From NCBI RefSeq assembly GCF_017302985.1, contig NZ_JAFIMU010000004.1, positions 697,001-761,000 on the forward strand: a stretch of 64,000 bases of DNA, written 5' to 3'. The notes beneath the pieces are model-generated. The model was not told where the DNA came from. It worked only from the letters and a program-made list of their open reading frames with translations, and made no database searches. This document shows positions 4,108 through 38,655 of this stretch, piece after piece. The DNA is from Corallococcus macrosporus (GTDB taxonomy: Bacteria; Myxococcota; Myxococcia; Myxococcales; Myxococcaceae). The position numbers and the translations under genes were made by a program. How positions within the stretch are numbered: position 1 is the stretch's first letter; the number at the start of each line of letters is the position of its first letter.

Positions 4108-5340
4108 ATGGCAACGACAACGACAGCTCCCCAACTCGTCCCCGAAGGGGCGCCCGCGCCCGCCGCCGCGGCACAGGCGAAGCGCGGCAAGCGGGGCTTC
4201 CTCATCCTCGGCATCGTTGTGGCCGCCATCCTGCTGGCCATCGGCGGCTTCAAGGTCGTCACGGCCGGGCAGGAGTCCACCGACGACGCGCAGGTGGAGG
4301 CGGACGTGGTGCCCCTGGCCGCGCGCGTGTCCGGCCCCGTGGTGAAGGTGGTGGTGAAGGACAACGCCACGGTGCACCAGGGCGACGTGCTCCTTCAGAT
4401 CGACCCGCGTCCGTACGAGGCGCGCGTGAAGCAGGCGGAGGCCGAGCTGGAGTCCGCGCGCGCCCAGGCGGTCGCGGCGGACGCGCAGGCCACGGTGGCG
4501 GAGGCCGGTGCGAAGGGCGGCCTGTCCAGCGCGAAGGCGCTCGTGTCCACGAGCACGTCCGCGGTGAGCAGCGCCCAGGCGCAGGTGGCGGCGGCCCGCG
4601 CGGCGGTGACTCGCGCGGAGGCCCAGGCTCGCAAGGCCACGCTGGACCTGGAGCGGGCGCAGAGCCTGCGCAAGCAGAACGTGGTGGCGCAGAGCGCGCT
4701 GGACGACGCGCAGACGGCCAACGAGACGGCGCAGGCCGCGCTCGAGGGTGCCCGCGCGCAGCTCGCGCTGGCGGAAGAGGGCCGGCGGACGGCGGAGAGC
4801 AAGGTCGCGGAGGCGAAGGGGCAGCTCGACGTGAGCGCGCCCATCGACGAGAAGATCGCCGCCGCCCAGGCCAGCGCGTCGCTGGCGCACGCCCGGGTGA
4901 AGGGAGCGGAGGCCGCGCTGGAGCAGGCGAAGCTGCAACTGGAGGACACGCGGATCATCGCTCCGGCGGACGGCCAGGTGTCCAAGCTGTCCGTGCACGC
5001 GGGCCAGTTGCTCACCCCTGGCCAGGCCGTGGCGGAGCTGGTGCCGAACACGACCTACGTGGTGGCGAACTTCAAGGAGACGCAGGTGGGCCACATGCAG
5101 CCCGGCCAGCGCGTGGAGGTGGAGCTGGACGCCTTCTCCGGTGAGAAGCTGGAGGGCAAGGTGGAGAGCCTGTCTGGTGGCACCGGAGCCCGCTTCTCGC
5201 TGCTGCCGCCCGACAACGCGTCCGGCAACTTCGTGAAGGTGGTGCAGCGAGTGCCCGTGCGCATCACCTGGGTGCACCCGCCGGAAGGCCTGGCCCTGAG
5301 AGCCGGCCTCTCCGCCGACGTGACGGTGCACACGAAGTAG
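4108..5340 (+). CDS. EmrA/HlyD-family membrane fusion protein
   Basis: A 410-residue periplasmic adaptor. A membrane anchor (about residues 30-50) is followed by the TDDAQVEADVVPLAARVSG barrel-lipoyl segment, a long Ala/Glu-rich coiled-coil hairpin (about 110-265), then a second lipoyl/beta-barrel half with the TRIIAPADGQVSKL pattern of the family. It should bridge the EmrB-type pump just upstream to an outer-membrane channel. It is the last gene of the operon: a strong hairpin-T tract terminator follows 20 bp downstream. Confidence 0.9.
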   Translation: MATTTTAPQLVPEGAPAPAAAAQAKRGKRGFLILGIVVAAILLAIGGFKVVTAGQESTDDAQVEADVVPLAARVSGPVVKVVVKDNATVHQGDVLLQIDPRPYEARVKQAEAELESARAQAVAADAQATVAEAGAKGGLSSAKALVSTSTSAVSSAQAQVAAARAAVTRAEAQARKATLDLERAQSLRKQNVVAQSALDDAQTANETAQAALEGARAQLALAEEGRRTAESKVAEAKGQLDVSAPIDEKIAAAQASASLAHARVKGAEAALEQAKLQLEDTRIIAPADGQVSKLSVHAGQLLTPGQAVAELVPNTTYVVANFKETQVGHMQPGQRVEVELDAFSGEKLEGKVESLSGGTGARFSLLPPDNASGNFVKVVQRVPVRITWVHPPEGLALRAGLSADVTVHTK

Positions 5341-5360
5341 CCAGAAGCCCCGTCCCCCCA

Positions 5361-5393
5361 GCGCCGCGCCCCAGCAGGGACGCGGCGCTTTTT
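5361..5393 (+). terminator. Rho-independent terminator of the TetR-EmrB-EmrA operon
   Basis: A perfect 8-bp GC-only stem (GCGCCGCG at 5361-5368 with CGCGGCGC at 5381-5388), a 12-nt loop and five Ts directly after. Confidence 0.85.
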
Positions 5394-5522
5394 CATGCCC
5401 TGATGGCGGCGGGCCAAGAGCCCCTGCCTGGCGCAGCGGCCAGGTCCTCGGCGCCAATTTCAATCTCCGCTACTGAGAAGCTGAGAGCCGAACGAGCCTC
5501 CCCGTCAGGCGCGCCCCAAGCG

Positions 5523-6540
5523 AACTGGTCCGACAGTCGGACCAATTGGTCCTCACGCCCGAGGTAAGGGGCGCCCGCCGCAGCCAAGCCACACGGACTG
5601 GTCCGACAGTCGGACCAGTTGGGCCCAACACCAATGGCCAGCGGACCCCTCATGCGTGCCGCCGAAACCGGTCCGATAATTGGACCCGTTACGCCAACCG
5701 ACCAAGGCCGGGGCGCCCGCCTCAGCCAAGCCACACGGACTGGTCCAACAGTCGGATCCGTTGGGACCAACGCCCGAGGCAGGAGGGGCCTCCGCTCCAG
5801 CCGTGCCGGAGCAACTGGTCCGACAGTCGGACCAGTTGGAGGCACTGCCCAAGGCAGGGCGTCCGCTCCGACCGTGCCTCGTGAACCGGTCCAACAGTCG
5901 GACCAGTTGGAGGCACTGCGCAAGGCAGGGCGCCCGCTTCAGCCGAGCCACATGAACTGGTCCGACAGTCGGACCAGTTGAGCCCAACGCCCGCGGGAAG
6001 GGGGACCGCTTCAGCCGAGCCACATGAACTGGTCCGACAGTCGGACCAGTTGAGCCCAACGCCCGCGGGAAGGGGGGACCACTCCATCCGAGCCATGGAG
6101 ACTGGTTCGACTGTTGGACCCGTTGGGCCTACTGACTACGGCAAGGGGGACATCTTTTCTCCCGAGCGATGGCGACTGGTCCGACAATCGGACCAGTTGG
6201 GCAACCGCTTGAGGCAGGAGCCTTCGCTCCATCCGAGCTACACGAACTGGTCCGACAGTCGGACCCACTGGGCTCATCACCGAGGCAAGGGGCAGCCCTC
6301 CAGGCGAGCCTCATGAACTGGTCCGACAGTCGGACCCGTTGGAATCACCGCCCGAGGCAGGGGCCGCTCCAACCATCCCTCCGAAACTGGTTTGACAGTC
6401 GGACCAGCTGGGGGGCTTACGGCGTCCGCTCCAGCTGTGCCGCGGCAACGGGTCCGACAGTTGGACCGGTTGGGCGCATCGCTCGTGCCGAGGGGGCGCC
6501 TGCTCCAGCCGGGCCATGGAGTCTGGTCGGACCGGTTGGG
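5523..6540. repeat. Array of ~15 copies of a 25-bp palindrome at ~71-bp spacing (non-coding)
   Basis: The consensus is a 12-bp arm AACTGGTCCGAC, one central base (A), then the arm's exact reverse complement. Copies start at 5523, 5596, 5666, 5738, 5813, 5884, 5955, 6027, 6100, 6174, 6245, 6316, 6385 and 6447; a 15th copy near 6520 has lost its centre. Start-to-start distances are 62-75 bp, mostly 70-74. Copies at 5813, 5955 and 6027 match the consensus exactly; others differ mainly in the outer arms while the GGTCC/GGACC core is largely kept. The roughly 46-bp linkers are also related (recurrent CCCAACGCCCG, GGCAGGG and GCTTCAGCCGAGCC blocks), so the whole unit was tandemly amplified. No gene is supported: unit lengths are not multiples of three, and all frames give only repeat-derived peptides. 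The array lies between the emrA terminator and an IS630 element. Confidence 0.95.
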
Positions 6541-6559
6541 GCTCGTGGGGCGGTGCCTA

Positions 6560-7777
6560 AACGACCGATCGTGATTCTCGAACGGTCTCAAGCTGCGCGT
6601 CGAGCGGAGGCGACGCGCAGCAAGGGGCTGGCGGACTTCTGGGTGTTCCGTGCGTCGAGGTAGGCGTCCACCTCGGTCATGAGCGCCTCCATCTTCTTGC
6701 AGCGATGGTTGCGGGTGACGTTGGCGTGCACGTCCCACCACACGCGCTCGATGCGGTTGCCCTCCGGGCAGTACGGCGGCAGGAAGTGCAGCACCAGCCG
6801 CTCACCCAGAGCCTCCAGCGCCTTCTGCGTCTTTTTGCTGGAGTGGGTGGCGGCATTGTCGAGGATGAAATGTAGGCGCTTCGCTCTGGGATAGGCGGCG
6901 TCCACGGCGCGCACCAGGTCGATGAAGAGCGCACTCGTCTTCTTCTCCCCCTGCACCCAAGTCATCCGGGCCGTGCTCGCATCCAGCGCCCCTGCCACGA
7001 AACGCTTCTGGTTGTTGCCGGGAGTGACGACCTCTCTGCGCTGTCCGGGCAACGTCCAGTCGGGGCCGATTTTCGGGTTGAGGTGCACGTCCATTTCATC
7101 CTCGAAAAGCACGGGCTCGTCGGGCCGGGCGAAGGCCGCACGGCATTTCAGCTGCCAGAGGCGCCGTCGACGTCGGCGCTCCGGCCAAGGGCAGCGCACC
7201 ACGGGACGCGGACGCCTTCTGTGGGCTCCCACCGAGGCCAAGGCGCGTCCCATCGTCGCGGGCGAGACGCGTACCCGGCCTCGCCTCTGCACCTCACGCA
7301 CCAGCAACTCGCGCGTCCACGTCGTGCGCCGCCAACCGGACTGCTGCGGCGTGCCTTCCAGCACCCGGCGCAGCGTCTGCCGAAATCGCTCGTCCACTTT
7401 GCGTGGCCCATTCTGAGCGCGCCTGTCCGAGAGGCCTTCTCGGCCTGACTTCTGGAAGCGCTGAACCGCGGACACCACCGTGGACGTGGCGCACAGCAAC
7501 TGCCGCGCTGCTTGCGCCCGTGACTGACCACTGGCCACCTTCGCTACCGCCAGGCACCGCCGCAGGGTGAGCGGGCAGCCAGTCCTCTCTCCCCAGCGAA
7601 TCAGCCGCCTGCGGTCAGGACATCGCAGGCGCAGCTGTTGCCTTCCCTGAGGCAGGGCTCGCTTCTTCATCCGGTTCTTGCGCACACAAGGCCGAACGGC
7701 GCGAGCTCCTGCCCCTTTCCTTCAGCTCCCAGCGCCTGCCTACCCTCCGAGCCGATCGGGATTCATGCGCGGTCGTT
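6560..7777 (-). mobile_element. Complete IS630-family insertion sequence, 1218 bp
   Basis: Both ends carry an imperfect terminal inverted repeat. Starting from the flanking TA-containing CTA, the two ends share CTAAACGACCG exactly and about 23 of 29 positions overall. The element is bounded by TA at 6558-6559 and TA at 7778-7779, the target duplication expected for IS630/Tc1-mariner elements. It carries one intact transposase gene on the minus strand. It sits about 20 bp beyond the last, damaged palindrome of the repeat array and 17 bp from the end of the acetyltransferase gene. Confidence 0.88.
6588..7685 (-). CDS. IS630-family transposase, intact
   Basis: A 365-residue protein with N-terminal HTH regions (about 35-90) and a DDE catalytic core: Asp196 in FEDEMD, Asp276 in ILDNAATH and Glu313 in GNRIERVWW, giving 36 residues between the second Asp and the Glu, as in IS630/Tc1-type enzymes. 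No frameshift or premature stop is present, so it may be active; many family members need a ribosomal frameshift, but this one is a single frame. A second in-frame ATG five codons in (7670) is possible. Confidence 0.92.
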   Translation of the reverse strand: MRKNRMKKRALPQGRQQLRLRCPDRRRLIRWGERTGCPLTLRRCLAVAKVASGQSRAQAARQLLCATSTVVSAVQRFQKSGREGLSDRRAQNGPRKVDERFRQTLRRVLEGTPQQSGWRRTTWTRELLVREVQRRGRVRVSPATMGRALASVGAHRRRPRPVVRCPWPERRRRRRLWQLKCRAAFARPDEPVLFEDEMDVHLNPKIGPDWTLPGQRREVVTPGNNQKRFVAGALDASTARMTWVQGEKKTSALFIDLVRAVDAAYPRAKRLHFILDNAATHSSKKTQKALEALGERLVLHFLPPYCPEGNRIERVWWDVHANVTRNHRCKKMEALMTEVDAYLDARNTQKSASPLLRVASARRAA

Positions 7778-7794
7778 TAGCTTGGGGATTGCCG

Positions 7795-37399: not shown

Positions 37400-38584
37400 T
37401 CAGACCGAGGCAGGGTCCGTTCCGCAGGGTACGTCGCATTGTGCTACGCAGTTTTCGCAGAGGCTGCTGTTGCTCTTCGCCGTGCTGGCCCCCGCTACGA
37501 CAGGCAACTGGCAACTCAAAGGCAGTCCGCAGGAGCAGGTGGATAAGGAGGCGGACTGGAGGCCTTCCTCTGGACTCGAATCGTCTCGACCGTCGGACGG
37601 ACTTCCCGCGGCCGCGTCCACGGCACTCCCTTCCACGCGCTCACACCCGGGCTCGCTAGACATAAGGCTCAGGGCGATTGAAGGACGCAGTTCCTCGCCG
37701 TCCGGCTTCGTGGGGCAGTCGAGGCCCCGCTTCGTCACGCAGGGGATGACCTCCAAAGCCCCTTCCTGCGCGCTGGCTGACATGGAGGCTTCGGGGAGGG
37801 AAGTCTCGGGGGATGCATGCATCCGAGGACGTGGGGCGAACGAGTCGAGCACCCGCGCATCACACGCCTTCAGCAGTAGCGGCAGTTGGTGCTGAAGCGC
37901 CTGCATGTCGCGCTCGCTCAGGGCGTGCATCGCGCACCGGGCCCACTGGCCCAGGACTTCGCCGCCCATGAAGGGCAGCAGCCGTGCCTCAATGCCCCTG
38001 AAGGCCCTTTGCAGCGATTGGATGAGGAGCAGGTGCCCGGGACGCGCAGCCACCTGGGCCGCCAGCCGCAGCAGCTCGAACTCCAGCTGGGCGCAGCGCT
38101 CTCCAGGGTGCCAGCGCGCCGCGTCCCAGAGCGCGTAGCAGACGGACTCCAACCGGCCAATCTCCGACTCGGAGGCATTCGCGCAGCAGTCGGCCAAGAG
38201 CTCCACCAGCACCTGCCGCTTGAGGCTGAAGAAACCCTCCAGCAGTCGCCGGCCCTCCTCGGAGCGCGCGGCATGCAGCGCCAGGCCCAGGTTCTCTAGC
38301 GTCAGCGTTTCGTCCAGCGCCACCGCTCGCGCCTGGCGTCCGGGGTGCTGCACCACGAGGCCTCGTGCCGCCAGCCGCCGCAGGGCCTCGCGCACCGTGC
38401 CCCGGCTCACGCCATACCAGTGGGCCATCACCCGCTCCGAGGCCAGCCGCCCGTTCCTCGGCAGGCGCCCCAGCGCGATGTCCTGCTCAATCTGCTGCTC
38501 CACATATGCCACCAGCCCCACCCTCACCATCTCCGCCGCCCTTCTCGCCGATGCTTCGCGCATCCAACCAGACGGGTCTGACAT
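37400..38584 (-). CDS. FadR/GntR-family regulator with long Cys-rich C-terminal tail
   Basis: A 394-residue protein. Residues about 28-95 form a FadR-type winged helix (RLASERVMAHWYGVSRGTVR, then a wing containing VVQHPGRQ), with Arg and Thr in the recognition helix as in E. coli FadR. Residues about 110-235 are an all-helical effector domain. The last 150 residues are low-complexity and end in a Cys-rich stretch (STCSCGLPLSC..., LCENCVAQCDVPCG) unknown to me in this family. A perfect copy of the array palindrome lies 46 bp upstream of the start. It probably represses its own promoter; targets are unknown. Confidence 0.78.
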   Translation of the reverse strand: MSDPSGWMREASARRAAEMVRVGLVAYVEQQIEQDIALGRLPRNGRLASERVMAHWYGVSRGTVREALRRLAARGLVVQHPGRQARAVALDETLTLENLGLALHAARSEEGRRLLEGFFSLKRQVLVELLADCCANASESEIGRLESVCYALWDAARWHPGERCAQLEFELLRLAAQVAARPGHLLLIQSLQRAFRGIEARLLPFMGGEVLGQWARCAMHALSERDMQALQHQLPLLLKACDARVLDSFAPRPRMHASPETSLPEASMSASAQEGALEVIPCVTKRGLDCPTKPDGEELRPSIALSLMSSEPGCERVEGSAVDAAAGSPSDGRDDSSPEEGLQSASLSTCSCGLPLSCQLPVVAGASTAKSNSSLCENCVAQCDVPCGTDPASV

Positions 38585-38630: not shown

Positions 38631-38655
38631 AACTGGTCCGACAGTCGGACCAGTT
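38631..38655. repeat. Solitary perfect copy of the 25-bp array palindrome upstream of the GntR gene
   Basis: Identical over 25 bp to the array consensus (arms AACTGGTCCGAC and its reverse complement around one A). It lies 46 bp upstream of the regulator's ATG and about 170 bp upstream of the divergent gene at 38828, a position suitable for an operator. Confidence 0.9.

Follow-up and report, generated by a model that had tools for sequence, protein, structure and literature searches.

A tandem array of palindromes behind an hlyD gene

The window analysed here, a stretch of 64,000 nucleotides from Corallococcus macrosporus, contains a closely spaced series of similar palindromes next to an hlyD gene, and the question it raises is which protein, if any, reads these sites and what so many copies of one site would do. 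The array and its immediate surroundings comprise the following features:

4108-5340: HlyD gene, flanking the array on one side
5360..5393, + strand: terminator-like hairpin with a T run, 3' of hlyD and outside the array (recognised by eye; the terminator scan was negative)
5472..5489, + strand: left motif of the dispersed element described below, ACTGAGAAGCTGAGAGCC, 63 bp before the centre of the first palindrome
5523..6471, no strand: tandem array of 14 palindromes of 25 bp each, putative double FadR-type operators
6522..6537, no strand: contracted 15th copy, TCTGGTCGGACCGGTT, with the inner 8-9 bp missing, resembling a single FadR-type site (TGGT-N3-ACCG)
6557-7780, - strand: IS630-like insertion sequence, flanking the array on the other side as a neighbour and not as part of it

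The 14 full copies start at positions 5523, 5596, 5666, 5738, 5813, 5884, 5955, 6027, 6100, 6174, 6245, 6316, 6385 and 6447, with 62-75 bp from one copy to the next, and differ from the reference 25-mer of the array, AACTGGTCCGACAGTCGGACCAGTT, by 0-5 mismatches. When the window was scanned at no more than 3 mismatches, 21 strand-hits were obtained, with 0 expected from dinucleotide shuffles of the window; one of the matched places, at 38631, lies outside the array. Tandem Repeats Finder described the array with a period of 71 bp, 12.4 copies and 69% matches, and a search of the window against Rfam matched 0 families. A sequence-only reading of this locus had reported about 15 palindromes of 25 bp recurring every ~71 bp. 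This array is real, with 14 full copies and one contracted copy where none is expected by chance, but the label of perfect-type palindromes, which suits the three of 14 copies identical to AACTGGTCCGACAGTCGGACCAGTT, is generous for the remainder. The same reading had set CRISPR aside on the ground that the linkers are related, and we agree: the repeats are variable, and the linkers are 62% alike compared with 85% for the palindromes, features on which CRISPR was rejected. The IS630-like element, of which three more near-identical copies exist elsewhere in the genome, landed beside the array later and now separates it from the conserved gene that follows.

Distribution of the palindrome in the genome and the genus

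The palindrome occurs both as singles and as arrays in the 9.8-Mb genome of C. macrosporus, in which the 25-mer has 113 forward matches at no more than 3 mismatches and a reversed control pattern has 0 matches at the same threshold. A sister form, AACCTGTCCGACAGTCGGACAGGTT (AACCTG..CAGGTT), accounts for 83 forward matches, and hybrids between the two forms, referred to as TGG-type and CTG-type, exist. Ten of 15 congeners contain the TGG type, either with 8-113 forward matches or with one or more matches on the reverse strand, and the other congeners carry 0; Archangium violaceum, Hyalangium versicolor and a Myxococcaceae MAG are further carriers among the matches listed.

Presence of the palindrome is patchy across the genus, and this applies to the hlyD locus as well. 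The site is shared by several congeners, with 3 copies each in G002 and G003, 20 in G013 and 14 in the genome studied here (G000), whereas G005 and G010 have none. The intergenic stretch behind hlyD measures 67 bp in G005, 155 bp in G010, or is longer in other relatives, and a search for a precise empty site at this locus in relatives gave no clean insertion boundary and no readable target duplication.

A family of FadR-like regulators carries the same palindrome

The single match outside the array stands upstream of a regulator gene:

37400..38584, - strand: GntR/FadR-like regulator gene (394 aa), one of 15 paralogs and the putative palindrome binder
38631..38655, no strand: single exact palindrome, putative autoregulatory operator, 46 bp upstream of the regulator start codon

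The gene product matches the GntR family (PF00392, E=1.8e-13), and its AlphaFold model (pLDDT 81) consists of a winged helix-turn-helix followed by a seven-helix domain. The best solved structures retrieved by Foldseek were those of FadR (1hw1/1hw2), the FadR-DNA complex first, with a TM-score of up to 0.67 by target. The protein is not FadR proper, however, as it scores 30.5 bits against the NCBIfam FadR equivalog TIGR02812, far under the cut-off of 249.2 bits. The operator site of E. coli FadR is AACTGGTCNGACCAGTT.

An upstream palindrome is present at all 15 regulator paralogs of the genome, about 43-67 bp before the ATG, with TGG arms at eight and CTG arms at seven of them. These palindromes start at -71, -76, -81 or -91/-92 from the ATG; the starts mostly step by ~10 bp, about one helical turn. 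Nearly all regulators checked in other Corallococcus genomes also have a palindrome upstream. So do the homologs in four genomes from a second genus (the one to which G022 belongs), where the gene is single-copy and ~49% identical. A few regulator copies had no palindrome in the stretch read, namely L295, and L354 and L355, which are cut at contig ends. Homologs from family g16 in other genera reach 32 copies in G076 and 16 in G089, with no upstream palindrome in those examined, indicating that the regulator gene amplifies without the palindrome too. The copies in G076 cluster toward the dnaA-bearing chromosome end (Rayleigh p 0.001).

Over 16 congeners, the number of regulators correlates with the number of palindromes (Spearman rho 0.87, p about 1e-5, uncorrected for shared ancestry). 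Where a genome has no more than one regulator, its CTG palindromes number about ten or fewer and TGG palindromes are essentially absent. Among the regulators read, G009 has one of the Arg type described below and G005 none, and both genomes are CTG-rich and TGG-poor.

The neighbours of the regulator genes showed no evident common function. The C-terminal ~100 residues of the regulator (37400-37805 in the window, and in the paralogs) are poorly conserved, overall length varies from 340 to 462 aa, and a palindrome-like sequence occurs within two of the C-terminal tails. A supposed second dispersed repeat, CATCCAACCAGACGGGTCTGACATGGACG, was rejected, being really the start of the regulator coding region.

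Correspondence between the palindrome and a published recognition rule

Operators of the FadR subfamily follow the pattern TKGT/ACMA, in which 3 nt separate GT from AC; an arginine at HTH position 28 (Arg35 in FadR) prefers G at K (PMC4494728). Each 25-mer resolves into two overlapping GT-N3-AC cores, GTCCGAC and GTCGGAC, with one base (A) between them and with outer TGGT/ACCA half-sites, and the half-sites and the 3-nt distance of the subfamily are found in both GT-CCG-AC and GT-CGG-AC. Within arrays, conservation is highest at the outer GT and AC (98-100%), and at position 5, which the search left unscored, K is present in 1253 of 1278 half-sites.

We compared 65 distinct regulator/palindrome pairs from Corallococcus and the second genus. 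All 21 regulators with Arg at the position of FadR Arg35 are paired with TGG/TGG arms, and all 44 with another residue are paired with other arms. On the tree, three changes are needed for operator type and three for the residue, with 0 discordant pairs. Because a gene is passed on with its operator, and independent switches number no more than 2-3, the residue/base match is not statistically independent by itself; the strength of the correspondence lies in its agreement with a rule published by others. G087 speaks against the correspondence, as it has a Gln-type regulator yet ten TGG-type dispersed copies.

A further indication comes from hybrid copies, 251 of 639, in which half-site types are mixed, K is mostly kept and stem pairing is broken; since the half-sites survive and the pairing does not, these copies fit half-site recognition and not a paired RNA stem. 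Moreover, the K/M restriction and the linkage to the regulator in the single-copy genes of the second genus need selection by a protein. The proposal that a symmetric protein selects the palindrome thus gains support from the FadR-like GntR genes that carry it and from a residue/base match that follows the published rule, and we consider it very probable that the palindrome is a FadR-type operator of this regulator family.

A dispersed intergenic element located mainly behind genes

Many dispersed copies share more than the palindrome, as a consensus motif, GATGAGAAGGTGAGAACC, starts 62-66 bp from the palindrome centre. Within the fetched loci (1.7 Mb in total, chosen for containing palindromes), 42 of 46 motif matches lie near palindromes, nearly all at this distance, and in the whole genome of C. 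macrosporus the motif occurs at 12 places with no more than 2 mismatches, and the majority of these places are at palindromes already known. Conservation extends ~40 bp to the left of the motif before falling to background level. At a distance of 80-84 bp from the palindrome, TIR-like ends (AGGCCCTCGGACATG) are found repeatedly, the right end in few copies only. These features suggest that the palindrome travels in a MITE-like intergenic element, for which no target duplications and no cognate transposase were found.

The location of the palindrome clusters is strongly skewed. After removal of the regulator promoters, 52 clusters lie between convergent, 70 between tandem and 17 between divergent genes; the corresponding counts for the remaining intergenic regions in these loci are 9, 124 and 87 (chi-square p about 1e-17, with a simple gene caller and partly dependent loci). 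The median distance is 70 bp to gene 3' ends and 190 bp to 5' ends. With clusters placed mostly behind genes, the majority of copies are not promoter operators.

This pattern could also arise from a selfish REP- or MITE-like repeat whose copies spread to positions behind genes and lengthen through slippage, with regulator binding incidental or captured from a regulator promoter. The motif at constant distance, the fading conservation, the TIR-like ends, the patchy presence in the genus and arrays whose length at a given site changes from species to species all agree with such a repeat, and the resemblance to REP/BIME elements with their RAYT extends to high-copy palindromes behind genes, some within genes, and to their clustering. 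However, all 16 Corallococcus genomes gave no match to the RAYT domain (Y1_Tnp, PF01797) at E<=0.001, no GTAG or CGTC tag was seen by inspection of the flank consensus and listings, and no target duplication was established; the RAYT-REP system was rejected on the first of these results. In place of a RAYT there is a putative cognate regulator, and both the K/M restriction and the linkage to regulator genes of the second genus, single-copy there, call for selection by the protein. We regard the selfish repeat as a rather unlikely account of the whole. Consequently, the tandem REP-type element suggested earlier is matched in its many dispersed copies behind genes but not in its RAYT or tag. The sequence-only reading had also stated what a neutral REP family would look like; of that description, hundreds of copies and the lack of promoter bias were found, whereas the absence of a binding protein was not, as the FadR-like family carries the palindrome upstream.

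Proximity to stop codons and frequent placement between convergent genes raise another explanation, namely an RNA hairpin at gene 3' ends that serves as terminator or mRNA stabiliser. An 11-bp stem is predicted, and the hairpins fold well. Nevertheless, neither the terminator scan nor the flank listings showed a U-tract or terminator in the array, a result that counts against an intrinsic terminator there. The hlyD gene has its own terminator-like hairpin, which is also present in relatives free of palindromes and thereby argues against a terminator role for the array. In addition, the hybrids described above break the pairing while keeping both half-sites, and the complementarity of the outer stem was no better than that of crossed flanks (1611 of 10000 permutations). 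We see very little chance that the palindromes act as RNA.

Growth of arrays at individual sites

Among 40 arrays of at least 4 copies, periods range from 36 to 125 bp, roughly constant inside an array and differing between arrays. It follows that arrays are local tandem amplifications of one founder with its own flank and that the 71 bp seen in the window is not a selected spacing; a fixed helical spacing of the array was rejected on the same range of periods. Copy number differs between genomes at orthologous sites, one of which holds 1, 3, 4 or 5 copies and another 1, 5 or 10.

Possible function of the arrays and dispersed copies

Taken as a whole, our interpretation, which we hold to be reasonably probable, is that the array arose from a double FadR-type operator amplified in tandem. 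Dimers of lineage-specific, multi-copy, autoregulated GntR/FadR-like repressors, one of them encoded in the window, would bind the palindrome, Arg at the FadR Arg35 position selecting TGGT arms and other residues selecting CTGT/TTGT arms. Copies would have spread over the genome inside the short intergenic element behind genes, and singles would then have expanded locally into arrays. The most likely role of bound arrays would be that of decoys, which titrate the repressors away and determine the threshold of the autoregulated promoters.

For decoy sites, theory and plasmid experiments give thresholds and bistability (PMC9725139). These genomes have as many as fifteen related repressors and about two hundred sites, numbers at which decoys would be expected to set repression thresholds. 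As in those systems, there would be many surplus sites for a putatively autoregulated factor, although here the sites are genomic repeats. The operator sponge put forward by the sequence-only reading corresponds to this titration and is a good hypothesis; titration may be the main consequence of the arrays and dispersed copies, with the odds slightly against it in our judgement.

The positions of the copies, mostly outside promoters, also fit chromosome-organising sites read by a repressor-fold protein, by which the copies would structure or mark the nucleoid. A precedent is SlmA (PMC3116907), which combines a TetR fold with palindromic sites that are dispersed, and the likeness to SlmA and MatP sites lies in a repressor-fold protein with dispersed palindromes off promoters. 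Of the 42 exact copies in G022, 16 are found in the first 0.66 Mb of the contig, whose start is ~46 kb from dnaA, with 4.2 expected, but this interval was picked after looking and the Rayleigh test on the same data gives p = 0.09. In both G022 and G087 the distance between dnaA and the single-copy regulator gene is ~50 kb. Clustering is absent in the palindromes of G087 and in the regulators of G009. Unlike SlmA and MatP sites, the palindromes show no reproducible macrodomain pattern, are patchily distributed and go with many regulator paralogs. Five congeners have few or no sites, which argues against a housekeeping function. A nucleoid role is quite improbable, and the centromere proposed by the sequence-only reading is not supported.

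Comparison with other FadR-subfamily GntR regulators returns us to the operator-repressor interpretation. The likeness comprises the winged helix-turn-helix with an all-helical C-terminal domain and FadR as best fold match, the same half-site, the same Arg-to-G rule and a palindrome upstream of the regulator gene. The differences are a double overlapping 25-bp site in place of a single one of 17 bp, paralogs numbering as many as 15, and operators in hundreds of non-promoter copies and arrays. Array and regulator are parts of known kinds; the open-access literature searched contained no description of the palindrome repeat or the regulator expansion, nor of their combination. Tentatively, we propose a two-part system in which amplifying autoregulated FadR-like repressors, in Arg and non-Arg classes, and matching operators on dispersed repeats might form a genome-wide decoy or nucleoid-marking network off promoters.

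Dispersed bacterial palindromes usually have no known reader. Here a likely reader can be named from sequence data only, together with its base-contact residue and two matched classes, which makes binding, decoy titration and operator-repressor co-evolution directly testable, and the congeners nearly devoid of the system provide natural controls.

Contracted copies and palindromes within coding sequences

Contraction of the palindrome is also seen in the array of G002 (L255), where copies of the form AACTGGTCGGACCAGTT have the inner 8-9 bp missing and equal the classical single FadR operator consensus. Palindromes were further observed within ORFs at L041 and L036 (G000), L182 (C. interemptor), L085 (G011), L023 (G003) and L122. 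The ORFs at L041 and L182 are NRPS condensation/adenylation genes and that at L036 is a ketoacyl-synthase ORF. Tandem copies inside ORFs are in frame, at 57, 60 or 114 bp, and add peptides such as PVRQSDRF.
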